From positions 186,001-250,000 of the forward strand of contig JAPOWH010000019.1 in NCBI GenBank assembly GCA_026707735.1: a stretch of DNA of 64,000 nucleotides. Direction: 5' to 3'. The translations under genes were made by a program, and so were the position numbers. Under the pieces are notes generated by a model that worked only from the letters and a program-made list of their open reading frames with translations, did not search any database and was not told where the DNA came from. The DNA is from Gammaproteobacteria bacterium (GTDB taxonomy: Bacteria > Pseudomonadota > Gammaproteobacteria > Pseudomonadales > Azotimanducaceae). Of this stretch, positions 48,808 to 64,000 are shown in pieces (the first letter of the stretch is position 1; each line of letters opens with the position of its first letter).

Positions 48808-51800
48808 TTATTCATCTATTGGTGTCCATCTGATTGCATCAGCGACTCCCCAGCCCTCCGAAATTTCTTCGATCCGCACTTCCACATCGTGAGAGTCAAC
48901 CTCAAACGTACCCATTTCATACCATCCCGCGTCTACTACATCTGCTTCGATTTGGACGCTAGTGCTACTGCTTCCCGTGTCAACCAAGACTTGATGCATC
49001 CCTAATTTGGCAGGCCAGACGAAGCGGGTATCCTCGTCCGGCGAACGCTTGTGAAATCGGAAGTTCAAGTCCACCAACTTGATGGAAGGAATGTGGAACT
49101 CCAGCTTCCAATTCCCAAGAGTAGGCAGTGTGGCCGAGAATTTTGGTCTAGTTTGTCCTACTCCCAGTGTTGTAACGGCGTAGGTGTGCCGGTATTTGCC
49201 GTAACTGGTGGGATGATAGTCTCGGAACCAAGGCTGCCCTCTATCGATGGGCTGAACTATGTGCTCCCCTCCCAACCTCATACTTGGCAAAGCATCGTCC
49301 AACCGAGGTAATCCATGGTCACGATCGAGCTCTCTCGGTTGAGCGGAGAAAAGCCAAATGTTGTCCACGTTCAAGGACACTGGAGCGGTTGGATCGTAGT
49401 TGACGCTGAACCCTGCATCCAAGTCATCGACAACGATGGCGGTAGAGTTCGGTTGGTTCCAATGAACTACCGATGTGTAGGGCAGTTTAGTTTCGCTTGT
49501 TGAAATAGAGTCGTCCATTGGAGGAAATTCGATGCGAATAGAACCTCGATTGAGCGAGAAAATTGGTGTTACCCATACGTATGCGGGAGGGCGTGCAGGA
49601 TATAGCCAGCTTGTGAATGCGACTCGAAGCGATGTGTTTGCATCGACTTGGATTGGTTCCAAGTGATAGCGTGTATTGCTCTTTGGATCATCGTGTTGGT
49701 AAATGAGTTCTACTACACCAGGTATGGGTTCAGTGTTGCGAAGCGTGAAGCTTGCTTGATAGTGCATACTGCCGTCTTGCCGCGTCAATTGCTCCAATTC
49801 CGGTTCCGCTACCACGAACCCAGGCAATCTTGGGTCGTTAAGCCAGTCCCCTACTAATGCCTCAATGTCTATGCCGACATCCATGGCTGTTCGGTGGAAG
49901 TCACTTTGAGTGAAAGTTCGTCCTCTGTAGTTGTCAAGCAATTCGCGAAGAAGTGCAGGCACTTGGTTGCTTTTGAAGATCGTCGCAATCGACTCAGCTA
50001 CAGGAGCCGTCCGAAACAGCAAAGCCCTATAGGCAAATTCAGGATCTGACTCGAAATCGATACTGCTGGGCGAAATTCCGGAGAATTCAGTCCAAGCCGA
50101 TGGTGTATTCACGTGTCTTTCGCGGTGGTCTGGCGGTGAGACGAAAGGACTCAACAAATCCATCCAGGCATCGACCCTTGCCATCCAGTTCTTGTCGTCC
50201 TGTTTTAGCGCCGTGTGTACTGAAAAATACCCGCGGTGTTCGTCAATGAGGCCAGCCGCTAAATCTTCAACAACATGCTTTAGGGCAGTGGCTCCCGTTC
50301 CTTCCAGCGATGTCTGATAGCTCACCAATTGTTTAGGTAAGTTTTCTATTGGATTGCTTCCTAGGGAATCTCGCTTCAAGTAGTTGACAAGGCGTGAAAA
50401 CGCTCGGGACGAACGAGTTCCCTGCAGCGAACTTTCCATTGCTTCTGCGATGGCCTCGTCGAACATACGGTCAAAGCGTCGTCCCTCGACGAGTTTTTTG
50501 ACGCGAGCTATTGGCAAGCCGGATTCCCTGAGCATGAGTAGGCCTGGCGACGAGTAGGTGCTTGCCATTTGCCAACCTCCACCGTAGCTGCGCAAGCAAT
50601 TTGGTACTTCCACAACAGAGAGAGTGCCATAGGGATAGCCGAGACCGCCCCTTCGAAGTCGTGTCGTTGCCTCGTCTATCCACTCACGCAGAGGATCCGC
50701 GAGTGTCTTGAGCACGTCGAAGTTCTTAGTGTGCCTCCTGTGGAGCAGAACTTCAAAATCAACACCATCGACAGAAACTGCACGTCGTTCGAAGTTGGAG
50801 CCAATGAGCGTTACTTCCGGCACTGGCTTTTCTGGGCTAAACCTATAGCGGGACTTGCCGGTTTCCTCTAAAGGCATTCGCGTGCCAGGACCCGCGACGA
50901 TCCACTGTTTAGGTACGGACACCTCTATATCAACCTGAAAGAAGTCTTGACGACGCGTTTGCCAGGCCGTTTTGCCGTATGCCGAGCCTGAAGTGGGAAG
51001 CCAATTGACCCCAGGCATGAGAACAAAGAAACCGCGATGGAAAATGAAACTGTCGCTCCCATAGGGGAAGAGTGTTCGTCGTTCGTCGCGATTTAGTTTG
51101 GTTGTGTCCAAACTTGCATCTAGGTACGCAAATCGGGAATCTGGCTTGCCTTGCGCGACGATCCTCACGTCTGCTTCTGATTCTCGGCTATCGCGTTTAG
51201 GAATGGTGAGCAACCCCTGGCTGAACGTGTAGTTCTCGGTTTCTGAACCGTCTAGGTACAACAGTTGGAGGCGGTAACCCGGGTTTAGCGACAGCAGCCA
51301 TTCGTCGTCCGAAGACTCAGCATTTGGCTCGAGCGTCAGAGTTACATCCAAATGCACGATTGTTCCCGGTCTAACTACCACAGAGCCGGAGATCTTCCTG
51401 ATGTCAGTAAGTGAGTGGGTTTGTAGCTCGGCATGAGCCAAAGCCCACTTCCTTACTTGCTGCTGATCCAGGTATTTGGCACACACCAGCCCGAGAAGCA
51501 TGATCAAACCCGCGAGACAAGGTGCCAATCCAGCGAAGAGCCATCCAATTCGCTTCTCCGAATCCGTCTTCTTCGACTGCATACCTACGCCCAGCAAAAA
51601 GAAACCAAATGAGACTAGAAGGATTGCGGTTCGGTTGAGAAGAATGTCCGATGAGAAGAATGTGGGTGCCAGCTCCGTTGGAAGCGAGTTCGGTCCCATG
51701 AAGAAGGTCAAGGGTTCGAGAATCGGAGATGGAAACTTTGCGTAAACCAGGTAATAGAGCAGTGAGATAGCTAGAACAATCGTCGCAATTAGCCAACCAG

Positions 51801-52347
51801 ACTTCAGGAAACTGTTGAGCACAATTGCCAATGACCCCCATAGGAGGAAATTGGGGATTAAATCCCAGACAAAGAAGGCCAAAACACTGATTGATTCGAT
51901 GGAAGAGCCAATCGAGGCATTCGTGGAATCCAAGAGCCAACCCAACCCACAAATAAAAACGATTAGGCCGATAGCCAAGAAAAACATAAGGCCAACTGCC
52001 CCCAACAGCTTTCCGGTCAATGTTTCGAGGCGCGGTGTCTGTGAAGTCTCGTTAGATTCGATTTCACTATGCGATGATCGGCTTTTTCGTTCGGCGAACA
52101 CCAGCAAAGCCGTTCCACAGGCGAATAGTGCCAATACCAACCCACCCATGTGGTGTATTAGGTAATTTGGAGCGAGCGCCCCTGCGGAAGGGAAATAGGG
52201 AGACGCAGCGCCATGGATCACGCCTAGAACGATCCAATAGCCAATGCATGTGAGACCTGTGAGGAAGTAAAACACCCAGGTTCGTGCAAGACGTACAAAG
52301 TAACGCATTTCGGCTAGCACGAGCAACGATAGATTTGAAAACCGCAT
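48808..52347 (-). CDS. Large membrane protein, ABC-permease/M1-peptidase-like with golvesin-like C-terminus
   Basis: A 1179-residue protein. The N-terminal 300 residues hold about seven helices like those of ABC-2 permeases. The following periplasmic part resembles the M1 aminopeptidase-like domains fused to such permeases (YPYGTLSVVEVPNCLRSYGG), but I find no HExxH zinc motif, so it is probably not a peptidase. The end, WYEMGTFEVDSHDVEVRIEE followed by GWGVADAIRWTP, matches the golvesin/Xly carbohydrate- or surface-binding fold. No ABC ATPase gene is adjacent. It may need an ATPase encoded elsewhere, or act as a surface-binding scaffold. Confidence 0.7.
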   Translation of the reverse strand: MRFSNLSLLVLAEMRYFVRLARTWVFYFLTGLTCIGYWIVLGVIHGAASPYFPSAGALAPNYLIHHMGGLVLALFACGTALLVFAERKSRSSHSEIESNETSQTPRLETLTGKLLGAVGLMFFLAIGLIVFICGLGWLLDSTNASIGSSIESISVLAFFVWDLIPNFLLWGSLAIVLNSFLKSGWLIATIVLAISLLYYLVYAKFPSPILEPLTFFMGPNSLPTELAPTFFSSDILLNRTAILLVSFGFFLLGVGMQSKKTDSEKRIGWLFAGLAPCLAGLIMLLGLVCAKYLDQQQVRKWALAHAELQTHSLTDIRKISGSVVVRPGTIVHLDVTLTLEPNAESSDDEWLLSLNPGYRLQLLYLDGSETENYTFSQGLLTIPKRDSRESEADVRIVAQGKPDSRFAYLDASLDTTKLNRDERRTLFPYGSDSFIFHRGFFVLMPGVNWLPTSGSAYGKTAWQTRRQDFFQVDIEVSVPKQWIVAGPGTRMPLEETGKSRYRFSPEKPVPEVTLIGSNFERRAVSVDGVDFEVLLHRRHTKNFDVLKTLADPLREWIDEATTRLRRGGLGYPYGTLSVVEVPNCLRSYGGGWQMASTYSSPGLLMLRESGLPIARVKKLVEGRRFDRMFDEAIAEAMESSLQGTRSSRAFSRLVNYLKRDSLGSNPIENLPKQLVSYQTSLEGTGATALKHVVEDLAAGLIDEHRGYFSVHTALKQDDKNWMARVDAWMDLLSPFVSPPDHRERHVNTPSAWTEFSGISPSSIDFESDPEFAYRALLFRTAPVAESIATIFKSNQVPALLRELLDNYRGRTFTQSDFHRTAMDVGIDIEALVGDWLNDPRLPGFVVAEPELEQLTRQDGSMHYQASFTLRNTEPIPGVVELIYQHDDPKSNTRYHLEPIQVDANTSLRVAFTSWLYPARPPAYVWVTPIFSLNRGSIRIEFPPMDDSISTSETKLPYTSVVHWNQPNSTAIVVDDLDAGFSVNYDPTAPVSLNVDNIWLFSAQPRELDRDHGLPRLDDALPSMRLGGEHIVQPIDRGQPWFRDYHPTSYGKYRHTYAVTTLGVGQTRPKFSATLPTLGNWKLEFHIPSIKLVDLNFRFHKRSPDEDTRFVWPAKLGMHQVLVDTGSSSTSVQIEADVVDAGWYEMGTFEVDSHDVEVRIEEISEGWGVADAIRWTPIDE

Positions 52348-52765
52348 GTGCTTATCCCTTAATGGACTCGTTGGTGCTACTGCCGAGCGTCACTGCCTAT
52401 AGGCTGAAGTATTTTGCACTACCCAGCTAGTGCAATAGTTCTTCATTTCATGCCTATTGCACAATTGCGTTTTCCAGTAGAAATGCGGTCCCTGATACCC
52501 TTGCCTCACAACGCAAAACGGGTTGCACCAACGTCAAATTCAAGCAATCGGTGATTGCTCTGGGAACTGACTACACACTACTATGTCCAAAAACCGACCA
52601 TTAGCCGTTCTACTCAAAGCAAGGTTTTGGTGGGCAGAAGGTCGGTGGTTTAGGTCCGCTTTCGACGCGAAGCCGCTTTGTAGGGACGCCAAAGCAAATC
52701 GGACCCGCTGACCGAATTCCTTGCCAACTCTTGATGGTTTTGAAGTCAATTGCAAGGAGAAATAC
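52348..52765. other. Intergenic region between divergent genes
   Basis: About 420 bases separate two divergent genes. Apart from the inverted repeats at 52414-52461 and the ribosome site AAGGAG before 52766, I see no gene, tRNA or terminator in it. Confidence 0.6.
52414..52461. promoter_or_regulatory. Cluster of TTGCAC/GTGCAA inverted repeats
   Basis: TTGCACTA (52414-52421) and TAGTGCAA (52428-52435) form a perfect 8-bp inverted repeat with six-base spacer. TGCAATAG (52431-52438) and CTATTGCA (52454-52461) form a second, partly overlapping one. The core hexamer occurs three times in 48 bases, upstream of the 48808-52347 gene and 300 bases ahead of the divergent gene. It looks like a regulator-binding region. 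Confidence 0.5.
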
Positions 52766-53299
52766 TTGATCCTACGCGCAACGACGACACGTCTCAATTT
52801 ACTCGCAGCTATTCAGATTGTCACAATTGCCTTAGCAATGGGGATTGCCACCTATTGGGTGAATGCGAATGGTGAGTCCACGGGAGAGAGCATTGATTCC
52901 GAGGGCGAGGAGTCAGGCACCCAATACCAAATTGACGAGACTTTCGATGAAACTAGAAACGGCGCCCGACTCGTCTTGAAGTACGACTCGAAAGTCCAAA
53001 ACTTCACGGGTCACGTAGAGAACACCACCAAAGCCAAATTGACCAACGTTCGGGTCGAGGTCCATCTCTCCAACGGAACTGAATTGGGACCAACGAAGCC
53101 ACAGGATCTCGAGCCAAACCAGAAAATATCGGTGACGCTATCTGCAACTGACCAGAAATTCAAAACGTGGGGAGCTCACCCCGAAGTAGGGAAACAGGGC
53201 TCAGGTGAACACGGAGGTTCGGAAGGAGACGGCGAACATAGCGGCAAGGAATCGTCGGGAGAGCATGGCGACGAGTCCGAGCGCGGCGAACACAGCTAA
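52766..53299 (+). CDS. Membrane-anchored FxLYD-like protein with His/Gly/Glu-rich tail
   Basis: From a TTG at 52766, six bases after AAGGAG, the protein has 177 residues. Residues 9-30 form a single anchor (NLLAAIQIVTIALAMGIATY). The middle, FTGHVENTTKAKLTNVRVEV followed by HLSNGTELGPT, has the FxLYD pattern of an immunoglobulin-like fold. The last 40 residues are Gly, Glu, Ser and His in short repeats of SGEHG and GEH, which could bind metal. It probably faces the periplasm. The tail is low-complexity, so similarity searches should use the middle part. Confidence 0.65.
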   Translation: MILRATTTRLNLLAAIQIVTIALAMGIATYWVNANGESTGESIDSEGEESGTQYQIDETFDETRNGARLVLKYDSKVQNFTGHVENTTKAKLTNVRVEVHLSNGTELGPTKPQDLEPNQKISVTLSATDQKFKTWGAHPEVGKQGSGEHGGSEGDGEHSGKESSGEHGDESERGEHS

Positions 53300-53488
53300 A
53301 CATACACACATACTTCAGATTCGGGTACACCGAGCATGTCACGTTGGTGCCAAGTGTCTTTTGGGCATTCAGCGGCAGTGGCAGCGAAAACTGAGCAGCG
53401 ATCAGAACATACAACACAGGAGACCTGTACCATGACGGAAATTCGCACACGTTACACATTTCCACCAATGAAACTAAGAGAGTCAACT

Positions 53489-54088
53489 ATGAAATTGTTA
53501 GCAGTCCCAATAGTGGCCTTAATGACATTCGCGTTACCGCTTTCCGCAGACCAACTGGTTCTCGGCGCTTACTCCCATGCGACCGTTGACGATAAGGAAG
53601 CCGGCATCGATTTCGAAGTCGGCGGACTAAATTTCATGTATGCCAATTTTGAGGGTGACCTGTTTTGGGCCATCGGCGCTGGCGGGGCTAGAGGTGAAGA
53701 CGAACTGTGCCAACTGGACTTCTGCATCGACTTCGAGACACAATCTAGAACACTTGATTTCTCGCTAGGGTTCAACTTCAACAATTGGCTCACTCCCTTT
53801 GTAACTGTAGCGAGATCAACCACTGACATTGACTGGGGCGTCACCGGACTAGGATTGGCAGATGCATCCGATAGCGAGTCGTCCATTGATGCAGGGCTTT
53901 GGATAGGCCGCAAAGACCTTCGGATCCAAATAGCAGCCCTGGGAGTCGACGACGAGTACCGCGCGGTATCAATTGGAGGGTACACGGTGCTGAACAGTGG
54001 ATTGGCTTTGGCAGGATTCTTTTCCAAGTCGATTGAAGGGGAAGGAGATGCGACAGGAATCTCTGTGGGATTGGGCTGGAGTTTCTAA
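53489..54088 (+). CDS. Small exported beta-barrel protein
   Basis: A 199-residue protein from the ATG at 53489, which has GAGAG six bases upstream. The signal peptide is KLLAVPIVALMTFALPLSA. The rest consists of alternating hydrophobic strands (FEGDLFWAIGAGGARG, LDFSLGFNFNNWLTPFVTVA, ATGISVGLGWSF) ending in Phe, the usual mark of outer-membrane barrels. Two cysteines near CQLDFC may form a loop disulfide. Family not recognised. Confidence 0.65.
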   Translation: MKLLAVPIVALMTFALPLSADQLVLGAYSHATVDDKEAGIDFEVGGLNFMYANFEGDLFWAIGAGGARGEDELCQLDFCIDFETQSRTLDFSLGFNFNNWLTPFVTVARSTTDIDWGVTGLGLADASDSESSIDAGLWIGRKDLRIQIAALGVDDEYRAVSIGGYTVLNSGLALAGFFSKSIEGEGDATGISVGLGWSF

Positions 54089-54130
54089 GGCACTCTAAAT
54101 CGCTGTCAACACCCACAGCACGTTAGGAGC

Positions 54131-54180
54131 CTATAGCGCAAGTGCGGCGGTCACGCTTGAAGTGAGACCGTTCGCTATAG
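54131..54180. terminator. Long imperfect hairpin between convergent genes
   Basis: CTATAGCG (54131-54138) pairs with CGCTATAG (54173-54180), and inside these GGTCAC pairs with GTGAGACC with a two-base bulge. It sits between two convergent barrel genes and overlaps the last codons of the right-hand one. It may end transcription from both sides, but lacks a clear T-run. Confidence 0.5.
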
Positions 54181-54975
54181 CGTATGGCGCAGGGAGAGCT
54201 TGAACCCTTGGCCCTTCAAACGTCCACGAGTCAAGTCCAAGTCGAGGAGCAAGGGTTCTCGACTGCCGCTTCGCCAAGCAACTTGCCCTACGTTGCGTGC
54301 CGTTCGAATCTCCCCGAGATCCATATATCGCCACGTCAAGTCCAACATCGTCCGTTGCTGGTTCAGAGCAAATGACAATCCCAGCGCTAGAACACCCGCA
54401 AAATTTGTCCGAGCGTCACCGGGAACGGTCGTGATCGTTCTAGGAAAGTCCATGCGCATATCGCTGCATTCATTGCGAACGAATCCGAATCCAAAACCCA
54501 CGAAGGGTGTGATCCCGCCGAAGCGAGAGCTCTTTCGATTTGTCAAATCCACATGTGCGACTAGGAGGCCTAGAGTCGATTCGATTGACGCAACGACGTC
54601 CTGTTGTTCTCCAGGCTGAAGGAAATTTGCCAATCCGACAAACTCGCTCTGACGGCGTTTCTCGGCGACGAGTTCTGCTCGAAATCTTGAGGTTGCAGAG
54701 TATCCCAGACCAAGTTCGAATGCTGGTGCCGATTTGAATCCACCATCGGAGCGGTAGGGATGCCCGTCTCCGCCGGTTCCACATCCGTATAGTGCATATG
54801 GGTATAGGTTTAGGCAGTTGCGGTCTGTGAACACTGTATCGCTGGCTTGGTCAAGAGCAACTCCGAATCGAAGGTAGTAGTCTCCAGCAAGCGCCGGAAG
54901 AGAAACGCACAGCACACAGATCGTGGCAATAACTCGAGCTGCCCGAAGGTGAAAATATGGATGCGCCGCCTGCAT
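54175..54975 (-). CDS. Exported outer-membrane beta-barrel protein
   Basis: A 266-residue protein with a signal peptide (RVIATICVLCVSLPALA). The mature part has the strand pattern of a porin-like barrel: FELGLGYSATSRFRAELVAE, LLVAHVDLTNRKSSRFGG, ITPFVGFGFGFVRN and MLDLTWRYMDLGEIRTA, ending in FKLSLRHTL. It recalls the OmpW/OprF-N barrel style, without identity to a named family. Cys pairs occur early (CLNLYPYALYGC). Confidence 0.7.
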   Translation of the reverse strand: MQAAHPYFHLRAARVIATICVLCVSLPALAGDYYLRFGVALDQASDTVFTDRNCLNLYPYALYGCGTGGDGHPYRSDGGFKSAPAFELGLGYSATSRFRAELVAEKRRQSEFVGLANFLQPGEQQDVVASIESTLGLLVAHVDLTNRKSSRFGGITPFVGFGFGFVRNECSDMRMDFPRTITTVPGDARTNFAGVLALGLSFALNQQRTMLDLTWRYMDLGEIRTARNVGQVAWRSGSREPLLLDLDLTRGRLKGQGFKLSLRHTL

Positions 54976-55069
54976 GCCTTTCCTGCCTTACTTTTGCTTT
55001 TTCGTTCTAGCCAAGAGCTAACGATTCGGCCGACATGTTAGCAGGTGAGGGCGACGGACTCTTAGGCCT

Positions 55070-55360
55070 TTAGGCGTCCTCGGATAGATTGTTGCGCACT
55101 TCGTACTCTACGAATCCGAGCTTGCGTAACTCTTGAGCCAAACGATTGAGGTCCTGCCATTCGCGTCGATTGTTGCGAACGCTAACTAGCGAATGCATGA
55201 CACCGTCAATGGGAATGGCAACGGCCCATGCAAGCGGTTTAGTCTTATTGTCTCCTAGACTCCCCCCCAATATCAGCCGATGAACACGATAAACCAGCGG
55301 TTTGCCCATCGCATGTCGGTATTCGTCAATCTGAGTTGCAAGAATGGTCCTAGTTTGCAT
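55070..55360 (-). CDS. Hypothetical protein, 96 residues
   Basis: A small soluble protein, TRTILATQIDEYRHAMGKPL followed by VYRVHRLILGG, with a middle segment AWAVAIPIDGVMHSLVSVRN and a charged C-terminus. No signal peptide or membrane segment. I do not recognise a family. The open frame is supported by length and by its sensible protein composition only. Confidence 0.45.
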   Translation of the reverse strand: MQTRTILATQIDEYRHAMGKPLVYRVHRLILGGSLGDNKTKPLAWAVAIPIDGVMHSLVSVRNNRREWQDLNRLAQELRKLGFVEYEVRNNLSEDA

Positions 55361-55601
55361 AGCTAGTTCTTACAAGAGTAACTGCATATGTGGGCTTGTG
55401 ATCTAGTGTGTGCGGACCAAGGCTGGCTGTAGCACTGCAGTTCTTTAGTTGGATATTCTGCACGACACAAAATTTTGGTGCATGACGACCATTAACCATG
55501 CTGAAGAAGTCTCAAGTACACTTCCATTAATACTGACATGAAAAATCATCACTTAATACAATTATGCAGACAACATTGGCAATGATGTATTATGTAAGTT
55601 C

Positions 55602-55616
55602 ATTGTCTTAGACAAT
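55602..55616. promoter_or_regulatory. Palindrome upstream of the TAXI/GluR0 operon
   Basis: ATTGTC-TTA-GACAAT, a perfect inverted repeat with six-base arms and a three-base centre, lies 33 bases upstream of the operon's first start. It could be an operator; there is no further support. Confidence 0.35.
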
Positions 55617-55649
55617 TGTCGTTCACAGCATCGTCCAAAGGAGTTTCCA

Positions 55650-57245
55650 ATGCTAGGCCGCATTATCGCATTTTGCGCTGTCTTCCTGCTCGTTTTCGCA
55701 ACTGCATACGATCTAGAAGCGCGCCGATTCGGAGGATCATTCAAGTTCAAGTCGTCCTCGAGCTACGCCAAACCCAAGTGGAGCGGGTCTCGAAAACCTA
55801 AGGCGGCGCCAAGCCGCACCGCGCAAAACACACGTGGGGCAGCAACCACCCGGAACGTGTCGAGCGCTCAAGCGCGTGGCAGCAATTTGGCACGCACACC
55901 TACGAATCACTTTTCAAGCACCAAACAGAAAGCTGCCTATCAGAATTACCAGTCGCAACAGCAATCCAAGTTCCAAGGTCGTTCCATAACTTCGAAGTCG
56001 AAAGCCGCTTCGCGACCCCTTTACCAAAAGGCAGCGAGAAACGCTCGCACGTCGTCTGGCAACTATTGGGATAGACGGGACAACTTCTACGGTGGCTGGA
56101 ACGCGCCCAACTATGTCTATTTCGGGGCGCCGAGCTACGGTATGTGGGACGGGTTCTTCCTGGGCTACATGCTTTCACATGCTATGACTCCTTCCTATGC
56201 CCGTCTTGCCTATCACCACCAACATGATCCAGGAATGCGGGAATGGCGAACTGAAATGGATACGCTGGCTGCAAGCAATGAAGAACTCAAAGCTCAACTC
56301 GACGCTCTCGATGCACAAGTCGCCGAACTAAGTGGAACGGCAATCGATCCCACGTACTTGCCTGCGGGAGTGAATGCGGACTTGGTAATGCCACCTGACA
56401 TGGTCGCCGAACTCAAGCCGACGTTCAAGCTATGCACGGCAGACAAGAATGGCAACTACTACGCATTCGGAAAGCTTCTCGAAGACCAGGCAGGTGGTCA
56501 GGTCAATGTGGAAGTCGTTACAACGGCGGGCTCAATGGAGAATCTCGAAGGCATGCAGAACGGACGTTGCGACGGCGCATTCGTGCAGCGCAATGCCTTT
56601 ACGACATATGCCGACCGCAATCCCGATGGCGCTTACAACTTTGAAAGAGTGTCCACCCCGGCACTGGAATACGCCCATCTAGTCTGCAATCGCAATAGCA
56701 AAGTGAAAGCAGTTGGCGATCTAATTGGAAAGTCGTTGCTAGTCGGCGAGGAAGGATCGGGAACGGAAGTCACTTGGACCGAAATCGTGGCCGTCGACGA
56801 CACTTATAAGGAAGTCAGCACGCGAAATGTTGGCGGCATGTCGGCACTTCAAGACGTCATTGCGGGAAGAAGCGACTGCATGCTCTATGTGGCATCACTC
56901 AATACGCAACTGATGAAGCAAGCCAACAATCGCGGAAAGGAACTGATTCTGGTTCCTGTGAACGACCGAAACCTTGACGACAAGACCTATGGCGAAGGTG
57001 TGAAGTTCGACGGACACATAGATCAATCCGGCGAACAGGTCTACGAATTCACCGATTTGCCAAGCGAGCAGTATGCAAACATCCAGGACGGATTCATCTT
57101 CACACAAGTGAAGACCTTGAGCGTTCCCGTGGACATGGTCGCAAGCCTGGAATGGAAGGGTCAGCATCCTGAGGTCTACAACGACTTGCTTGCCGCCGTC
57201 GGTGGAATTCAACCTAGCATCGATTCCCTAACTGACAAACGCTGA
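55650..57245 (+). CDS. TAXI-type periplasmic binding protein with unusual N-terminal half
   Basis: A 531-residue exported protein; AAGGAG lies seven bases before the ATG. Residues 1-24 are a signal peptide. Residues 25-140 are basic and rich in Ser, Lys, Gln and Arg. Then comes an aromatic stretch (APNYVYFGAPSYGMWDGFF) and a short coiled coil (TLAASNEELKAQLDALDAQ). Residues 270-531 form a periplasmic binding domain of the TAXI class (FKLCTADKNGNYYAFGKLLE, SMENLEGMQNGRCDGAFVQR, GKSLLVGEEGSGTEVTW). Several cysteines (LC, RCDG, VCN, DCM) suggest disulfides. It heads an operon without TRAP permease genes. Confidence 0.8.
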   Translation: MLGRIIAFCAVFLLVFATAYDLEARRFGGSFKFKSSSSYAKPKWSGSRKPKAAPSRTAQNTRGAATTRNVSSAQARGSNLARTPTNHFSSTKQKAAYQNYQSQQQSKFQGRSITSKSKAASRPLYQKAARNARTSSGNYWDRRDNFYGGWNAPNYVYFGAPSYGMWDGFFLGYMLSHAMTPSYARLAYHHQHDPGMREWRTEMDTLAASNEELKAQLDALDAQVAELSGTAIDPTYLPAGVNADLVMPPDMVAELKPTFKLCTADKNGNYYAFGKLLEDQAGGQVNVEVVTTAGSMENLEGMQNGRCDGAFVQRNAFTTYADRNPDGAYNFERVSTPALEYAHLVCNRNSKVKAVGDLIGKSLLVGEEGSGTEVTWTEIVAVDDTYKEVSTRNVGGMSALQDVIAGRSDCMLYVASLNTQLMKQANNRGKELILVPVNDRNLDDKTYGEGVKFDGHIDQSGEQVYEFTDLPSEQYANIQDGFIFTQVKTLSVPVDMVASLEWKGQHPEVYNDLLAAVGGIQPSIDSLTDKR

Positions 57246-57280
57246 CCCATCGAGCACCGTTAGATAGGGAGGATTTCGTC

Positions 57281-58042
57281 GTGTCCATGAAGGTGTACCT
57301 GTCGATGAAATTCGACGACATCAAGACGCGTTTCAGAAACCGCAAGGACCAGAGAGCCAGAGTCGACAAGGACCTTCCCTTGAATGTCAGGTGGGGTTCC
57401 CGAGTCGAGATCTCAGAGGCGCCGTTTCTCTTGCGCGAGGGGTATGGATTCGTGCCATACCCCGGACCGGAATCGCTCATAGGAGCTTTCAGTCGTGTAG
57501 ACATGGCAGGATTGCCGACAGTTCGCTTCTACATGAAGGATCGGGAGAATCCCGATTCGGAATCGATGCTGCTGGTCGCCAGCTCGCCAGACGGCGGAAA
57601 CACCCAAGACGAAATCTATCTCTTTCGAGAAAAGGAAGAGATTCCCATGTATTACACGCGGACGGATGAAGCTCCCAACGAAGATGCGGTGGAGAATGCG
57701 GTTGACTTTTGGATTGGGAAGGACGAGGGCATCATTGGGATGCCCTACTTTCACAGTCCCGATGAAGTCACCTACGAAAGGCTTTGGGAGCCCGACAAAG
57801 ATGAACGAATCGCTGGCGCCAAGTTCACCGAAGACATCAAGCTTGATCCTTACGGCGCGCAATCGTTGCAAGTCGAACACATGAGCACGATGCTTTATGC
57901 ACGCACCTTCGAAGGGATTGGTGGTGAGCAGGATGAATACATGCTGCCAACCGTCGAACACGATGAAAGCGGATTTCGCGTGCGCATTTGGTTGGGACTG
58001 CCTTTGTCGGAAGCCGATTTGGGATTTCCCGATGCGGTGTAG
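57281..58042 (+). CDS. DUF2491 family protein (YjfK-like)
   Basis: A 253-residue soluble protein of the DUF2491 group, to which E. coli YjfK belongs. Distinctive segments are LPLNVRWGSRVEISEAPFLL, DEIYLFREKEEIPMYYTRTD and LYARTFEGIGGEQDEYML. The GTG at 57281 is chosen because GGGAGG ends eight bases upstream; an ATG two codons later is possible. In E. coli, yjfK is the neighbour of the PspA-like yjfJ, and here a coiled-coil protein follows 96 bases downstream. Function unknown. Confidence 0.8.
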   Translation: MSMKVYLSMKFDDIKTRFRNRKDQRARVDKDLPLNVRWGSRVEISEAPFLLREGYGFVPYPGPESLIGAFSRVDMAGLPTVRFYMKDRENPDSESMLLVASSPDGGNTQDEIYLFREKEEIPMYYTRTDEAPNEDAVENAVDFWIGKDEGIIGMPYFHSPDEVTYERLWEPDKDERIAGAKFTEDIKLDPYGAQSLQVEHMSTMLYARTFEGIGGEQDEYMLPTVEHDESGFRVRIWLGLPLSEADLGFPDAV

Positions 58043-58074
58043 CTCATAAATAACCCGTCCAACGCAATCACTCA

Positions 58075-58086
58075 CTCTCTAGAGAG
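58075..58086. promoter_or_regulatory. Palindrome within the operon
   Basis: CTCTCT-AGAGAG, a perfect 12-base palindrome, lies in the 96-base gap before the coiled-coil gene. It may be a processing or regulatory site; position is the only support. Confidence 0.3.
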
Positions 58087-58138
58087 AAATCACAAGAAAA
58101 TCACAAACTAGAAAATTGTCACAACGAGGAAAAGCACC

Positions 58139-58912
58139 ATGTTGAAACATCTAACCTTTTGGAAGAACTACGGCGAGGGGAAACTCGCCAAAGCAGGAGA
58201 CGCCATTCTTGCAGGAATGGTTGAAATCGACCCCGAGGGAGTTTCCCGCGCCGAGATCGCGACCGAACGGGAGAAATTCGAGAAGTTTAGTTTGGAAGTG
58301 GAGGATTATCGCCAGACGTATCGCAAGGAAGCGCAGGAAGCAGAAGCTGCTCGCACATCCTACAACAAGAAAATGGACCAGATCCGAGCTCTCGAGAATG
58401 CGGCTGGATCAGCAGACTCCGCCGACAAGCAGGTCAAGTTTCAAGACGCGGCCGAAAAGCTTCGCAACGAGGCCGCGGAATTGCTGTCCATTGCCAAGAC
58501 CGAAATCGAGGAAGCGGAGATAGCCAAGCAGGATTTGGATGAAGTGGAAGCCATCCAACAGGAGATGGCGGAGACTGTAAAGCTTCTCGAAAGCAATCTG
58601 AAGAAGGCGCAGGCGGAAATGGAAAGAGCTAAGCGCGCGGAATCCAGAGCGCAAAAGCGCGCGGAGCACCAAGAACGATTGGCAGGAATTCGAGAGAATT
58701 CCGGCGCAATGGGCATAGCGTCTCAAGCAATGCAGAAGAAAGCGGAAGCAGCACGCATGAGCGCCAATGCCGCCAATCGTAGAGCAGAACTTCTCGGTGA
58801 TGCCAAGGACAAGAAGGATGAGGTCTTCGGCGATGGCGACGTGGCCGCCGTTCTGGAGAGCGTTGAGACCGCAAGTCAACCGCCGGCGCCCGACCTACCA
58901 GACAAGCTGTAG
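58139..58912 (+). CDS. Coiled-coil protein, PspA/IM30-like by context
   Basis: A 257-residue, highly charged protein that is almost all coiled coil, from about residue 40 to 215 (KRAESRAQKRAEHQERLAGI). The N-terminus (LKHLTFWKNYGEGKLAKAGD) is short and amphipathic, as in membrane-stress proteins PspA and IM30, which use such a helix to bind lipids. Its place after a DUF2491 gene matches the yjfJ-yjfK pair. The sequence itself gives only general coiled-coil similarity, so the PspA link rests partly on context. A GAGGA site precedes the ATG. Confidence 0.6.
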   Translation: MLKHLTFWKNYGEGKLAKAGDAILAGMVEIDPEGVSRAEIATEREKFEKFSLEVEDYRQTYRKEAQEAEAARTSYNKKMDQIRALENAAGSADSADKQVKFQDAAEKLRNEAAELLSIAKTEIEEAEIAKQDLDEVEAIQQEMAETVKLLESNLKKAQAEMERAKRAESRAQKRAEHQERLAGIRENSGAMGIASQAMQKKAEAARMSANAANRRAELLGDAKDKKDEVFGDGDVAAVLESVETASQPPAPDLPDKL

Positions 58913-58921
58913 ACCACAAAC

Positions 58922-59935
58922 ATGAAAAGGTTCATCGTTGCATGCCTATTGCTGGCCGCAGTTCCGTCCCTCGCGGAAACCGAGCTTTCGGTAGTGGTCA
59001 GCGAACTGGCGCCGTGCGCCATGCAACGCGACGGAGAATGGATGGGGTTTTCCGTCGAGTTGTGGGACACCATCGCCGAAGAGCTCGACTGGAACTATGA
59101 CATTGCGGCTCAGGACATTCCAACGATGCTTTCCCAAGTGGAATCAAAGGCTGTAGATGTTGGGATTGGATGCATCAGCGTCAACTATGAGAGAGAGCAG
59201 AGCTTGGATTTCACACACCCGATTTTGGACGGTGGCGTCAAAGCGCTCAGTCGCAAGAGCATGGGAGTGCTTCCACAACTGAGTCGCGAGAGTCAGATCA
59301 TGTTGGTGTTGCTTCTCAGTGTTGTTCTCGTGTTTGCGCACTTGATGTGGTTTTCAGAACGCGGGCGGGAAACTATCGATGATCGCTACTTTCCTGGCAT
59401 ATTCGAAGCGTGCTGGTTCAGCATCGTAACCATGTCGACGGTCGGCTACGGCGACGTCGCGCCACGACGGTGGCTGGGCCGGATCAGCGCCATGCTGATT
59501 ATCTTGCTTGGAGTGACGACGTTCGGGATTATCTTTGGTCAGTTCGCCGCCGACGCCATTAGTCCGCCCGCGGCGAATCCAGTGTCCTCGTACTCAGATC
59601 TCCACAAGTATCGGATCGGAGCGAAGGTTGGAACGTATGCGTACGACTACCTAACGAACTCTGACTTGGAGGTCGTCGACTACGAGACTATGGAAGCGGC
59701 AATTGAGGATCTCCGCAATCGGGAAATAGACTTGGTGATTCACGACTATGTCGCAGTTAGCTACGCCGCAAGGAAAAACGGTGACCTGGTTGAGACCAAC
59801 GCGATGTTCTATCCGCACCACTTAGGATTTGCTTTGGCTCAAGGTTCGCAACTGGTCGAGAGCATTAATCGAACGTTGCTGCAGCTTCGAGAGGACGGTC
59901 GTTATCAGGCCATTCATGACAAGTGGATTAAGTAG
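58922..59935 (+). CDS. Ligand-gated potassium channel, prokaryotic glutamate-receptor (GluR0) type
   Basis: A 337-residue protein with a signal peptide (1-19) and a periplasmic amino-acid-binding domain split in two by a pore, the architecture of GluR0. Lobe 1 (20-120) has the receptor pattern ISVNYEREQSLDFTHPI, in which R91 aligns with the arginine that binds the ligand carboxylate in ionotropic glutamate receptors. Then come helix 1 (126-144), a pore loop with filter TMSTVGYGDVAP (residues 173-178 TVGYGD) and helix 2 (188-210). Lobe 2 (220-337) has VIHDYVAVSY, where D275 could bind the amino group. It starts nine bases after the coiled-coil gene and is co-transcribed. Confidence 0.92.
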   Translation: MKRFIVACLLLAAVPSLAETELSVVVSELAPCAMQRDGEWMGFSVELWDTIAEELDWNYDIAAQDIPTMLSQVESKAVDVGIGCISVNYEREQSLDFTHPILDGGVKALSRKSMGVLPQLSRESQIMLVLLLSVVLVFAHLMWFSERGRETIDDRYFPGIFEACWFSIVTMSTVGYGDVAPRRWLGRISAMLIILLGVTTFGIIFGQFAADAISPPAANPVSSYSDLHKYRIGAKVGTYAYDYLTNSDLEVVDYETMEAAIEDLRNREIDLVIHDYVAVSYAARKNGDLVETNAMFYPHHLGFALAQGSQLVESINRTLLQLREDGRYQAIHDKWIK

Positions 59936-60075
59936 ACGGAAGCCTTGCGCTGTTGTCAATCGTTGGCCAATCGCAAAAATTCAGCTTGTCGCATGTGGCC
60001 CGATCGCGGCGGCCTGTTGCTTGTTCACTGCGTCCTCGCTGTTTTTCCGAGCAAACGACTATGTAAGGTTCCTGC

Positions 60076-60537
60076 TCAGCGCTGGTCAATCCACTCCACG
60101 AGAGCCTTGCTTGGGTCCGATAGCTCATCAAGGGATGTGAAGCAATATCGCTCCCATCCCACTCTTGGAAGTCCGGTGTACAGCATCAGATTTAGGGGAT
60201 AGTTCTCGCAAGGAGTGCAGGTGCGTGAGTCATCCCGAAATAGAAATATAGCCTTCTTCCAAGCAGTGGCTAGTCCAAGCTCGAAAACTACCCCTTCGTC
60301 CGGTGGAACTCCGTTCACCACGGCAAAAATCCCGTCGGCGTTCCAAACGTCGGAAACATCTGCCTGTCCGATGTGATAAGCCCATCCCTTTGTGGTTCTG
60401 TCGATTTGGTTGTTGCGCTCGAATGGTTCGTACACAACCAAACCCAAGGACTGAAGTCTTGCAACCAGCTTACTTAGCGTTTCGCTCTGTAGTGGCGAGA
60501 AACCATAACCGTTGGCAAGGTATACGGATTTGCTCAT
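60076..60537 (-). CDS. Nucleoside 2-deoxyribosyltransferase-like protein
   Basis: A 153-residue protein of the NDT superfamily, which includes enzymes acting on nucleosides and short TIR-like proteins. Marks are VYLANGYGFSPLQ at the N-terminus, NADGIFAVVNGVPPDEG and the catalytic glutamate in EGVVFELGLATAW. KAIFLFRDDSRTC follows. Length and motif order agree with the family. It may salvage deoxynucleosides or process modified ones; substrate not determined. Confidence 0.85.
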   Translation of the reverse strand: MSKSVYLANGYGFSPLQSETLSKLVARLQSLGLVVYEPFERNNQIDRTTKGWAYHIGQADVSDVWNADGIFAVVNGVPPDEGVVFELGLATAWKKAIFLFRDDSRTCTPCENYPLNLMLYTGLPRVGWERYCFTSLDELSDPSKALVEWIDQR

Positions 60538-61436
60538 CGAATTTGCGTTTCCTTGTACTCGTCAATCAGGAGAAATCCAGGCCGCTATTGACGATACGCA
60601 CTAAAAGCCAAATCGACAAGAGTCCGCCTTTCTGAACGTTGCCGCGATCGCAATAGTCTTTCCCAAGTATAGATTGGAGCATTGTTCACAACACGAGTGC
60701 ATAGTGCTTATTTGTCGCAGTAGGCCAGTTATGAGCAAATCGCTTTAGCCCTCCCCCAATAAGCACAAGTTAGCATTTGTTGTACCGCTCATCAGAACGG
60801 CCTCTAATCTCGAATTCGTTTTTGCTGTTTGGGTAGATATCAACCTAGGCAATGTTGTGGAGCAGATCAAGTATCTCTGTGCGTAGATAAGCTTGCAGCA
60901 TTGCAGATGATTGTGCAAGCACGACAGAAATCGCTCGACGACCATCAATGGCGATTCGTCAAGTTGTTCAATGCGGTTTGGCCAGTATAGGGCTCAAGCG
61001 ATTGATCGGTTTAAGGCATTTATTGACGGAACGACTTGCGATAGCTAGCGGGAACGATCGGTATTGATCACTTGGACACAACTATTCTGATTACACAAGT
61101 CGGTCGATTAAATCAATCTACTCTTTACTGATTCATTGGTCGGCTAGCAACACGGTTCAATTAGAGACTTAGGTTGAAGACGCACGCTTGGTCTAAAGAG
61201 TCACATTTCTAGATCACCTGTTCAATACCCATCAACCGCGGAAGTGGCGCATATTCCGCCCTATGAGTGTTGCTGGCTCTACGCCAAAAGAGGGCACAGC
61301 TTATTCCTGTGAAAAATGCGTTGCACGATCCCATCATATGACCGCCGCTAGTAACTCTAACTGGTCTGCCTGAAACTTTGCAATCGCTGGTAGTATCTAA
61401 TTTCAGAACAGTGGCATCAGTTCGAGCGGACATTCA
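60538..61436. other. Long intergenic region, no gene recognised
   Basis: Nearly 900 bases with only short open frames of improbable composition. I saw no tRNA-like T-loop, terminator, CRISPR or insertion-sequence end. It may hold regulatory sequence or decayed coding DNA. Confidence 0.55.
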
Positions 61437-63392
61437 ATGAATTCACCTAAACGAAGAACCCCAGTTCGTACTGCTGGACTAATCGTAATTGGAATGGTTG
61501 CGGGCGCAGGTGCCGTGATTGGGTTCTCGTTGCTTACCAATCAGGAGGGGGCACTAGACAAAGCAAACTCAATTGCAAGCGATGGCCTAACAAATCGTGC
61601 AACAAAAAGCGCGACAAGTCAAGGTTACTCTGATTCATCGGAATTGTTAGGAGAAAACTATAACGCTGACCTGAATGAGTTATCGCAACTAGCAGCTGAC
61701 TTCGCCGGAACGGTGGCTCTACACAATCTGCTTCTCAATACCGGAGAAGAAAGTCTTCAGACATTTTTAGAGCAATCCCGGAAGATCGACTCGCCGCACC
61801 GACGTCACGTTGCCGAACAGTCTATCTTCCAGCGATGGGGCGCATTGAACCCCAAGCGAGCGCTTTCGCAAATCTCTATGTTGCCCGATTACCGGCACGA
61901 TGCTATGGTGGCGACGGTGTTTGGGGAGTGGTCGGTAGCCGACTTGGATAGCGCAGTGAGGCATGCCAAGTCTCTAGAGAACCAATATCGGTTCGCCGCG
62001 TTACAGGGGATTCTTAGAACAAGAGACGATCTGTCGAGTGACCTTCAACGGCAGATCGCCAAGCAGCTGGGCAACGAGCAGTACGCTTTGGACCTGAAAC
62101 ACAATTCAAGAGTATCTGAACCTAGCCAAAGTCCGGATCAGTCATGGCATGAGCTCGTCAATGATGACCAAGACGACGTGTCTCAACTAACCATATTGAT
62201 CGAGCTCGCCGATTCCTTGGTGGAAAAGCAAGGGATCCAAGCGATTGGCCTAATCAACGAATCACTGACTGATAGAAGTGTACGCTCGGCCGTTGTCAGA
62301 TCTGCATTGCACCGAATCGCACGATCGAACCCGCAGAAGACTTTTCATCAGGCAATGTCGTTGCCTCGAGACTTGCGCGAGACATCCCTGCGCACCATTG
62401 TTGAAGCTTGGGCCCAATCAGATCCGATGGGAGCGCTTGATCGCATCGGATCGCTCAAGACGAACAGCATGCAACGTACATTGCAGGAACGAGTCTTGCG
62501 AGCATGGGCCAACCGAGATCCCCAAAATCTCTTTGATAACGTTGAGCACCTACCCGAGAATCTGCAATCCTCAGGCGAGCAAGAGGCCATGCTCGGAGTG
62601 GCGCGATCCTCGCTGGCTGAAGCCGTCATGTACCTGTCAGTTTTGACGGACTCGAAGAGGAAATCAGAACTAGCGAACGCAATTGCGTCGAGCTGGGCGC
62701 ATCTCGACGCCTATGGAGCCCTTGACTGGGCGTTGTCGGTCGAACTCACCGACGACGCTGTGCATCGCAACGTAATGTCGCGTGTATTGCGCGCGGTTGT
62801 GCAGATCGATCCTGATCTCGCCATGGAAACGGCATTGAACCTGCCGTTTTACAAGTCTCGATTTGGGCTGGAATCCGTGGTCATTGTTGACTTGGCTCAA
62901 GTGGATTTGGAAAAGGCCGTAGCGTTTCTTCCGAAAGTTCGTGAAGGAAGAACCAAGACAAGTGCATACAGCAGCGTGGGTAAGGTCCTTGTGGAGAATG
63001 GAGAATTCGATCGAGCACGGAGGCTGAGTGGGCAGTTGCCGGAAAACGCTCGCTCGAGCTATTTGAGCTCAATATTCGGACATTGGGCACAACAGGATCC
63101 CCACTCGCTGTTTGAAGCGCTCGATCGGATTTCTGATGCTGGCACAAAAGCGCTGGCCGCACTCCAACTTGTGGTCCACAATTCTCGCGCAAAAATGCTA
63201 GAAGCAGATCAACTTGCCCATATTACGAGCCTCTTCGGCGATGGCACTTCAATCCCAGGGCACGGGAGCTTTGTAATCTCCGTTGACGAATCGGCTCAAC
63301 GCGCTGCGAACCTCGATGTGGTTCGCATGACATTAGAGCAGTCGCTTGCTGAATCCCTGCTGAAAGAAGCAGTTAGGTCGAGTTCCGAGTAG
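61437..63392 (+). CDS. Membrane-anchored alpha-solenoid repeat protein
   Basis: A 651-residue protein with one N-terminal anchor (residues 13-33, GLIVIGMVAGAGAVIGFSLL) and then helical repeats of about 36-40 residues recognised by W-x4-DP-x2-A/L: WGALNPKRALSQI, WAQSDPMGALDRI, WANRDPQNLFDNV, WAHLDAYGALDWA, WAQQDPHSLFEAL. The pattern suggests a HEAT- or TPR-like solenoid facing the periplasm. No catalytic motif is visible. It could be a scaffold or assembly factor. I do not recognise a named family. Confidence 0.75.
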   Translation: MNSPKRRTPVRTAGLIVIGMVAGAGAVIGFSLLTNQEGALDKANSIASDGLTNRATKSATSQGYSDSSELLGENYNADLNELSQLAADFAGTVALHNLLLNTGEESLQTFLEQSRKIDSPHRRHVAEQSIFQRWGALNPKRALSQISMLPDYRHDAMVATVFGEWSVADLDSAVRHAKSLENQYRFAALQGILRTRDDLSSDLQRQIAKQLGNEQYALDLKHNSRVSEPSQSPDQSWHELVNDDQDDVSQLTILIELADSLVEKQGIQAIGLINESLTDRSVRSAVVRSALHRIARSNPQKTFHQAMSLPRDLRETSLRTIVEAWAQSDPMGALDRIGSLKTNSMQRTLQERVLRAWANRDPQNLFDNVEHLPENLQSSGEQEAMLGVARSSLAEAVMYLSVLTDSKRKSELANAIASSWAHLDAYGALDWALSVELTDDAVHRNVMSRVLRAVVQIDPDLAMETALNLPFYKSRFGLESVVIVDLAQVDLEKAVAFLPKVREGRTKTSAYSSVGKVLVENGEFDRARRLSGQLPENARSSYLSSIFGHWAQQDPHSLFEALDRISDAGTKALAALQLVVHNSRAKMLEADQLAHITSLFGDGTSIPGHGSFVISVDESAQRAANLDVVRMTLEQSLAESLLKEAVRSSSE

Positions 63393-63529
63393 CAGAGCAG
63401 TTGAGGTGGATAGAACTCGTACACACAGTCAATTCGTGCACACCCGCTTCGGCCAACAAATAATCTTGCACTGCGCACTTTGCAGTTCGTCACTTGAGCG
63501 CGATAATCGCCCCGTCCTGTGTCTATCTC

Positions 63530-63541
63530 TGTTTATAAACA
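63530..63541. promoter_or_regulatory. AT-rich palindrome
   Basis: TGTTTATAAACA, a perfect 12-base palindrome in the gap between two convergent genes. Its role is unknown; it could be a regulator site or part of a transcription end. Confidence 0.25.
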
Positions 63542-63595
63542 ACATTCAGCGGACTGAATAGAACGTCGTCGCGGTAGATTCAGAAGTTGCGACTT

Positions 63596-63898
63596 TCAAA
63601 GGACCTGTTCAAAGACTTCTAGTTGTGGATGGCCCACGTATGTGCCTTTGGGAGCACTCCGTTGCCCGTGGGCTTTACGAAATGCATCCGACTCAGTCCA
63701 AGCTTCAAATGCACCGCGCGACTCCCAGACTGAATGCGAGGCATACAGCGTGAACTCGTCGTTGGTGGGTCCACGCAATAGAGCAAACTGCTTGAATCCG
63801 GGCACATCAGCCAAGTGCGACTCTCGTGTCCGCCAAACGGTTTCAAATCCTTCCTCGAAACCTTTGTTGATTTTGAACCGATTCATAGCTAGAAACAT
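63596..63898 (-). CDS. Antibiotic biosynthesis monooxygenase (ABM) domain protein
   Basis: A 100-residue protein of the ABM/IsdG ferredoxin-like fold: FLAMNRFKINKGFEEGFETV, WRTRESHLADVPGFKQFALL, EFTLYASHSVWESRGAFEAW. From memory, N, W and H in these positions are also those used by heme-degrading IsdG proteins, so a heme-degrading or a quinol-oxidising role is possible. The ATG at 63898 is chosen because AAGGAG lies about eight bases upstream; the open frame extends 20 codons further. Confidence 0.85.
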   Translation of the reverse strand: MFLAMNRFKINKGFEEGFETVWRTRESHLADVPGFKQFALLRGPTNDEFTLYASHSVWESRGAFEAWTESDAFRKAHGQRSAPKGTYVGHPQLEVFEQVL

Positions 63899-64000
63899 GG
63901 AGCTTTCTCCTTGGTTTAGATGGCAATCACCAGTAGCCGATCTAGGTTCTTGTGCCACTCGACCTTTATAGGCAACTGCGATATCTTGGATAGTACATCG

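Follow-up and report, generated by a model that had tools for sequence, protein, structure and literature searches.

A TAXI-domain protein and a GluR0-type potassium channel beside DUF2491 and a PspA-like coiled coil: a possible sensor-swapped variant of yjf-type operons

Why should a channel resembling glutamate receptors stand in one operon with relatives of membrane-maintenance proteins? The question is raised by a window of 64,000 nucleotides from a Gammaproteobacteria bacterium (Pseudomonadales; Azotimanducaceae; GenBank assembly GCA_026707735.1, contig JAPOWH010000019.1, positions 186,001 to 250,000 of the forward strand), in which four plus-strand open reading frames at 55650-59935 are separated by gaps of 35, 96 and 9 bases. 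An initial annotation had described this arrangement and named the products as a TAXI-domain protein, a DUF2491 protein, a coiled-coil protein (here COIL) and a ligand-gated channel. The frame coordinates bear out the arrangement, and Pfam and NCBIfam searches of the window's frames agree with the names, except that COIL has no Pfam family above its cut-off and one TAXI model stays below its own:

55650..57245, plus strand: TAXI-domain periplasmic protein, 531 amino acids (Pfam, NCBIfam and PDB matches)
57281..58042, plus strand: DUF2491 protein, 253 amino acids, GTG start (PF10679, E 7.6e-14, 51.8 against a cut-off of 25 bits)
58139..58912, plus strand: PspA/Vipp1-like coiled-coil protein COIL, 257 amino acids (profile comparison, model and fold search)
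58922..59935, plus strand: GluR0-type K+ channel, 337 amino acids (Pfam and PDB matches)

The answer developed here is that the operon may be a variant, with the sensor swapped, of the membrane-maintenance operons that combine DUF2491 with PspA ("yjf-type"), a reading that, taken with the whole mechanism proposed below, is given slightly less than an even chance. As judged from profile comparisons and structural models, COIL occupies the place of PspA (YjfJ) beside DUF2491, and the TAXI protein and GluR0-type channel stand where yjf-type operons have a TrkA_N channel.

Sequence comparison indicates that the four-gene set is held together beyond chance. The order TAXI-DUF2491-COIL-channel is kept in five genomes of the same genus (L030-L034) and in Candidatus Azophilus lithoversatilis (L041; in Pseudomonadales, Candidatus Azotimanducaceae, according to NCBI), where the four genes lie between different flanking genes (flanks compared by eye). 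A sixth same-genus locus (L029) has the same order, on a contig that stops within the channel gene and with a TAXI gene that is broken or gapped. The three intergenic gaps of the window's operon contain no plus-strand terminator-like site. COIL is the best-conserved protein relative to the same genus (71-75% identity to that of the window), followed by TAXI (55-58%), DUF2491 (50-53%) and the channel (46-49%). When 58 genomes (own included) were searched for the channel and DUF2491, the 18 of the same genus, three of them less than 90% complete, held either both genes (7/18) or neither (11/18; Fisher p 3e-5, uncorrected for relatedness); weak matches confined to the pore (G004, and the second hits of G010 and G017) were left out of the channel count. 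A COIL scan of one genome per species (84,980 species), which used two exact peptide patterns, reaches near relatives only and may omit the window's own genome, returned seven loci, namely L029-L034 and L041. The initial annotation had proposed recording how often the four families co-occur: in these searches the exact set is confined to the window's genus and Ca. Azophilus, and its first three genes also occur without the channel.

That the coiled coil is related to PspA, likewise proposed at the outset, is missed by Pfam; profile-profile comparison supports it, and a fold search points the same way with weak scores. For the window's COIL, no Pfam family rises above its cut-off and PspA_IM30 is not among the matches at E <= 1; Pfam and PHROGs yielded no informative match, and a PDB sequence search nothing significant. 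One of four distant COIL members matches PspA_IM30 (PF04012) at E 0.048 (13.7 against a cut-off of 33.9 bits). With hhalign, a profile of 15 COIL sequences aligned with PspA end to end over 225 columns (93.1% probability, E 3.3e-7), and over 172 columns at 94.9% in the other direction, while the controls remained low: reversed COIL 1.5%, reversed PspA 0.3% and the unrelated coiled coil RmuC (7 sequences) 0.9%. The window-lineage and distant halves of the COIL family match each other at 99.2%. The structural model, built from 8 close sequences, consists of short low-confidence N-terminal helices, a long hairpin and two more helices (predicted at 6-13, 16-24, 35-90, 95-186, 193-224 and 233-245). 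With 92 predicted residues, the second arm of the hairpin would be longer than that of PspA/Vipp1. A Foldseek search of 350,542 PDB chains placed Vipp1 at all of ranks 1-10, with E 5.7e-3 to 7.3e-2 and a large root-mean-square deviation. At the level of profiles we conclude that COIL is probably a remote relative of PspA; it seems to be a branch of PspA proteins that escapes Pfam, and would be expected to bind membranes. COIL resembles the ESCRT-III-like PspA/Vipp1/YjfJ family in predicted helix layout, in the end-to-end alignment of the combined family and in its position beside DUF2491, and differs from it in falling below the PF04012 cut-off. Elsewhere in its genome are two further, Pfam-recognised PspA genes, one beside PspF-, PspB- and PspC-like genes and the other beside a band-7/flotillin-like gene (by eye).

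Among 341 genomes of the order, three have full COIL matches, all of the same genus (own included), and one a partial match; with a wider profile, 17 of 398 phylum genomes match at E <= 0.001. Eight of these, at E 4.5e-13 or better, were accepted; the nine others (E 3.4e-6 or worse) were judged chance coiled-coil similarity. DUF2491 adjoins COIL in six of the eight; in G441 (L155) the contig ends directly upstream of COIL, placing adjacency outside its scope, and in the 5.5 kb stretch of G637 (L156) DUF2491 was not found. A second COIL copy in G522 (L157, contig 353) is without DUF2491 and lies near a run of response-regulator-like genes (by eye). In viral contigs, none of 99 stretches with the peptide patterns was confirmed as COIL.

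The comparison with yjf-type operons rests on a survey of DUF2491 loci. A first, narrower search found DUF2491 in 6 of 299 phylum genomes and an alignment search in 30 of 398 (own included in both); since the PF10679 family search missed the window's own gene, false negatives are possible and the counts obtained through alignments are lower bounds. One stretch per genome was taken (50001-64000 of the window for its own) and its open frames scored with profiles. Within these stretches, PspA accompanies DUF2491 in 24/30 and COIL in 6/30, with no locus having both or neither. All 24 PspA-bearing loci also contain YjfI, DUF350 and YjfC, and 23 contain DUF1190, PspA and YjfI being on the opposite strand in some. 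This composition recalls a described third PspA group, which combines a CesT/Tir-PspA pair, a K+ channel with intracellular ligand sensing, DUF2491, DUF350, DUF1190 and a GspS-like ATP-grasp protein (PMC11237479). A K+ pore motif occurs in the frame adjoining DUF2491 in 19 of the 24. Ten of these 19 channels were scanned with Pfam: Ion_trans_2 was found in all ten, TrkA_N in eight (E <= 0.01; three at or above the cut-off) and a solute-binding lobe in none.

The COIL-bearing loci are more varied. The triad TAXI-DUF2491-COIL occurs without a channel in three of the 30 genomes (L056, L057 and L059, from G522, G497 and G405); L058 (G400) has a fused DUF2491 protein, DUF350 and COIL; and in L060 (G640; the weakest COIL, E 5e-15) DUF2491 and COIL seem to follow a secreted Ser-rich protein. 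In the G405 triad, a 320-amino-acid protein follows COIL (L059:6976-7938, minus strand), with weak SOGP_N and Arrestin_N matches below cut-off. G637 carries a yjf-like locus (L156, 1960-5281) in which YjfC, DUF350 and DUF1190 are found with COIL in the place of PspA. In yjf-like settings, then, COIL replaces PspA: DUF350 accompanies it in G400, and DUF350, YjfC and DUF1190 do so in G637. In a midpoint-rooted FastTree phylogeny of 36 DUF2491 domains, the 12 COIL-partnered sequences group together (support 0.945), which implies that the channel association recurs in two DUF2491 branches with different sensor types: 19/24 yjf-type loci and 7/7 window-type loci on the tree (L029 is not on it) are channel-bearing. 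The exact four-gene set is thus narrow, the triad wider, and K+ channels recurrent. The channel-free triad and the described K+ channel beside DUF2491 and PspA had both escaped the initial annotation.

Like yjf-type operons, including E. coli yjfIJKL, the operon of the window has DUF2491 beside a PspA-type protein, together with a K+ channel such as yjf-type operons often contain. Unlike them, it appears to place the channel's sensor outside the cell, whereas the yjf channel carries a cytoplasmic TrkA_N domain; it adds a TAXI protein, has COIL instead of a Pfam-recognisable PspA, and is without YjfI, DUF350, DUF1190 and YjfC. Profiles of YjfI, PspA and YjfC found no match in window positions 50001-64000, and the CesT/Tir-PspA dyad with its GspS-like ATP-grasp partner is absent there.

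The channel itself has a signal-like N-terminus, an S1 lobe (~24-111), a first transmembrane segment, a pore loop, a second transmembrane segment and an S2 lobe (~217-336), the transmembrane segments being placed by eye. SBP_bac_3 (E 2.4e-23) spans residues 28-336 around Ion_trans_2 (131-209, E 2.5e-15), and among solved proteins the closest are a bacterial homologue of glutamate receptors and glutamine-binding proteins (PDB matches 2pyy, 6h30 and GlnH). Three sites are of particular interest:

59438..59455, plus strand: K+ selectivity filter TVGYGD, channel residues 173-178 (sequence and alignment)
59192..59194, plus strand: S1-lobe arginine R91, in 7/7 rows and 26/26 of a wider channel alignment
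59744..59746, plus strand: S2-lobe aspartate D275, in 7/7 rows and 24/26 of the wider alignment

K235 and H274 correspond in the alignment to ligand-contact positions of GlnH. Both are present in 7/7 window-type channels, and in 19 other channels the lysine occurs in 1 and the histidine in 5; neither residue appears to be specific to the window-type clade. In prokaryotic glutamate receptors, the S1 arginine contacts the alpha-carboxyl and the S2 aspartate the alpha-amino group of glutamate (PMC2950845). Half-domains flanking two transmembrane segments and a pore loop, a K+-type filter and the Arg/Asp pair together agree with Group 1 receptors of the GluR0 type. In Synechocystis, GluR0 is a K+ channel whose ligand lobes face outward; it affects cell volume under KCl shock, and effluxed glutamate has been suggested as its activator (PMC13099474). 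The likeness to GluR0 and Group 1 receptors (PMC13099474, PMC2950845) extends to the S1-pore-S2 layout, the filter and the Arg/Asp pair; the window's channel differs in standing in a DUF2491/PspA-like operon, and its ligand is predicted from sequence. It is probably a GluR0-type channel with outward ligand lobes and a predicted glutamate-gated K+ current. The proposal in the initial annotation that an extracytoplasmic ligand gates the K+ pore is supported as the natural reading of these features.

The TAXI protein comprises a signal-like N-terminus (the signal peptide judged by eye from an A-x-A before RRFGG in relatives), a Ser/Arg-rich stretch, a conserved YGxWD module (~146-258) and the TAXI domain (~262-528). 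NMT1_3 (PF16868) matches residues 262-444 above its cut-off (E 2.3e-17, 64 against 27 bits), and 1us4 (E 1.9e-6) and 8s4j (E 1.4e-3) are matched in the PDB. Its putative ligand contacts lie in one stretch:

56457..56669, plus strand: stretch with Y270, S295, Q313 and E340, aligned to Y45, S75, Q93 and E125 of VcGluP

Equivalents of these four residues are present in 10/10 aligned TAXI proteins; the alignment to VcGluP runs through 8s4j, whose numbering fits that of PMC11574862 with an offset of 28. Glutamate affinity of VcGluP was cut 213-fold by Y45A and 990-fold by Q93A (PMC11574862). Together with R91 and D275 of the channel, the TAXI contact residues would fit a glutamate-class ligand. The protein resembles TtGluBP (1us4/1us5), VcGluP (PMC11574862) and BP0403 (PMC12344293) in its TAXI domain and glutamate-contact residues, and BP0403 also in having extra N-terminal domains and no TRAP (tripartite ATP-independent periplasmic) partner (PMC12344293); it differs from them in its N-terminal module and in neighbouring DUF2491 and COIL rather than a transporter. 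Separately, the TAXI protein matches phrog_6856, of unknown function, at E 1.1e-38, ahead of every Pfam and NCBIfam model; phage or prophage sets therefore include TAXI-like proteins of this kind.

A possible bridge between the TAXI protein and DUF2491 comes from G400 (L058:7322-8908), in which a signal-like N-terminus, a TAXI-type module and a hydrophobic stretch followed by Arg/Lys residues are fused to DUF2491. The module corresponds to that of the window-type TAXI proteins at E 2e-11 (search space set to 1000), and this fusion was the only match among five proteins tested with the module profile. It suggests a link across the membrane, with the module outside and DUF2491 inside. Genes yjfIJKL are strongly up-regulated in heat-evolved E. 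coli, and YjfK has been suggested to be a porin-like barrel, which two membrane predictors did not confirm (PMC12492005); the G400 fusion favours a cytoplasmic DUF2491 and would argue against a porin role. The DUF2491 model (pLDDT, the predicted local distance difference test, 66.2; pTM, the predicted template-modelling score, 0.67) is beta-rich with a predicted N-terminal helix at residues 3-19. A PDB sequence search returned nothing significant, and an attempt to derive a function from a fold search was abandoned, its 50 listed matches being unrelated, mostly beta proteins (query template-modelling score 0.10-0.21).

In its likely role, the operon would use glutamate or glutamine outside the cell both to gate K+ flux and to inform a PspA-like module for membrane maintenance. 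An amino acid of the glutamate/glutamine class would bind the outward lobes and open the channel, and K+ would then move down its gradient, shifting turgor and membrane potential. The TAXI protein would bind the same ligand class and, by way of its N-terminal module, pass a signal through the membrane to DUF2491 on the cytoplasmic side; DUF2491 would control COIL, which would assemble on the inner leaflet and stabilise the membrane. The natural signal may be glutamate and K+ (K-glutamate) leaking from stressed or damaged cells. The fuller version, a glutamate-gated membrane-repair circuit in which the TAXI protein and channel read leaked glutamate and COIL carries out repair under DUF2491 control, is a doubtful proposition that we put forward with reserve.

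Several results weigh against the sensor-swapped reading. On the side of COIL, the PF04012 search did not report it; the window-lineage profile alone reaches only 18.3% against PspA, and the distant members 92.1% over only 64 columns, so that the PspA signal rests on the distant members and the combined profile. The COIL model is modest (pLDDT 72.7, pTM 0.45), none of its 663 Foldseek matches reaches E <= 0.001, template-modelling scores for ranks 1-10 are 0.22-0.43, and other coiled coils follow from rank 11 onward. The TAXI protein stays below the TIGR02122 TRAP_TAXI cut-off (E 1e-20, 73.9 against 84.35 bits), and equivalents of Y45 and Q93 are common in TAXI proteins generally (78% and 54% in the authors' alignment; PMC11574862). 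The module profile that detects the G400 fusion has no match at E <= 10 in the TAXI proteins of L056, L057 and L059 or the secreted protein of L060; the N-termini of those three TAXI proteins are Ser-rich and otherwise unlike the window type.

The remaining adverse points concern the channel and feed the alternative that survives best, namely that TAXI, DUF2491 and COIL make up the functional unit, beside which the channel is a lineage-specific neighbour, co-located or co-expressed for osmotic reasons and mechanistically unconnected. Three triad loci without a channel (G522, G497 and G405) imply that the core can do without it. At E <= 1e-20, 22 of 249 phylum genomes (own included) have a GluR0-type match, and in 18 further regions from 17 of these genomes, several shortened by contig ends and with the partial matches G566, G477, G519 and G571 set aside, DUF2491, COIL or TAXI occurred within the fetched stretch in 0/18. 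The association of GluR0-type channels with DUF2491 therefore looks particular to the window's lineage. A T-x-G-Y-G filter motif is present in 6 of the 18, and yjf-type profiles found nothing in them apart from one PspA-profile match (1e-9) in G470 (L193:5086-6285, minus strand), which adjoins a GluR0-like receptor without a K+ filter. The initial annotation had held that scattered homologs would speak against it; GluR0-type channels at large are indeed scattered, whereas in the window's lineage the set stays together. In the same-genus relatives the channel starts some 200-460 bases past COIL, with small membrane-protein frames between. Against a mere neighbour stand the persistence of the four genes in the genus and in Ca. 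Azophilus despite different flanks, the joint presence or absence of channel and DUF2491 across the 18 same-genus genomes, and the recurrence of K+ channels as DUF2491 partners in the other branch (19/24). On balance this alternative is judged possible and rather unlikely.

Amino-acid sensing for uptake, with the TAXI protein delivering glutamate to a partner, the channel balancing charge, and DUF2491 and COIL merely acting as scaffold, is improbable. Both receptors carry glutamate-class sites, and a TAXI protein that lacks a TRAP permease can work with a transporter of another kind, as the multidomain BP0403 does with GltS (PMC12344293). As the initial annotation stated, there is no TRAP permease or polyamine gene among the four operon genes; they include no transporter at all, and a pore with a K+ filter does not carry amino acids. 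Elsewhere in the genome there are four DctM-type TRAP permease matches, none of them above the TIGR02123 cut-off for the fused permease (assembly 95.8% complete). Uptake genes near other DUF2491 loci lay outside the survey, which included no uptake profile.

Slightly less probable still is that COIL is an unrelated coiled-coil scaffold whose likeness to PspA reflects convergence of long helical hairpins. The absence of a Pfam match above cut-off, the single marginal PspA_IM30 match among four distant members and the low score of the window-lineage profile would all be expected under convergence; set against them are the reversed-sequence and RmuC controls (0.3-1.5%), the filling of PDB ranks 1-10 by Vipp1, and the replacement of PspA by COIL beside DUF2491, DUF350 and YjfC. 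An anti-phage or self-killing system with the channel as a leak effector is very improbable: ion channels do serve as effectors in some defence systems, but at E <= 0.01 three of the four proteins have no PADLOC match, and the only models matched by COIL, LmuB and JetC (best E 2.3e-4), seem to reflect the general likeness of coiled coils.

Around the operon, four further features were recorded:

55533..55562, plus strand: promoter-like site CTGACA-18-TACAAT, 5' of the TAXI gene (three such sites in the region against 4.8 expected, not above chance)
55070..55360, minus strand: 96-amino-acid gene, outside any Pfam family and divergent from the operon; uncertain whether it belongs to the system
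60076-60537, minus strand: nucleoside 2-deoxyribosyltransferase-like gene (PF05014, E 8e-26), downstream of the channel and convergent
L031:8190-8345: frame for a ~50-amino-acid single-transmembrane protein with a basic tail, between COIL and channel in this relative

The 96-amino-acid gene adjoins the operon in 6/6 same-genus relatives (72-76% identical), where the other flanks differ from the window, and has no match in L041. Frames listed downstream in L030-L034 start differently from those of the window; no search for the PF05014 gene was made there. The ~50-amino-acid frame lies at the same place in L029, L030 and L032-L034, the match being only partial in L029 and L030, and its position is reminiscent of PspB-like small membrane partners. 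L041 has a dissimilar hydrophobic frame directly past COIL, and the window, with its 9-base gap, has none.

The open-access literature searched, which excludes most subscription papers, named DUF2491 in one paper and contained no description of the four-gene set; a K+ channel beside DUF2491 and PspA is known already (PMC11237479), and the main text of that paper, as distinct from its supplementary tables, does not contain the terms TAXI, SBP, glutamate receptor or ligand-gated. It is the sensor that differs in the window, and its pairing with a K+ channel that is new. Little is known of what prokaryotic glutamate receptors and DUF2491 do, and the operon gives both a concrete setting. That K+ channels with different sensors accompany two DUF2491 branches suggests that K+ flux is part of the function of these systems. 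If the doubtful membrane-repair circuit proves true, a bacterial glutamate receptor would be wired to an ESCRT-III-like machine, an arrangement reached independently of the intracellular-sensing channels of yjf-type operons.

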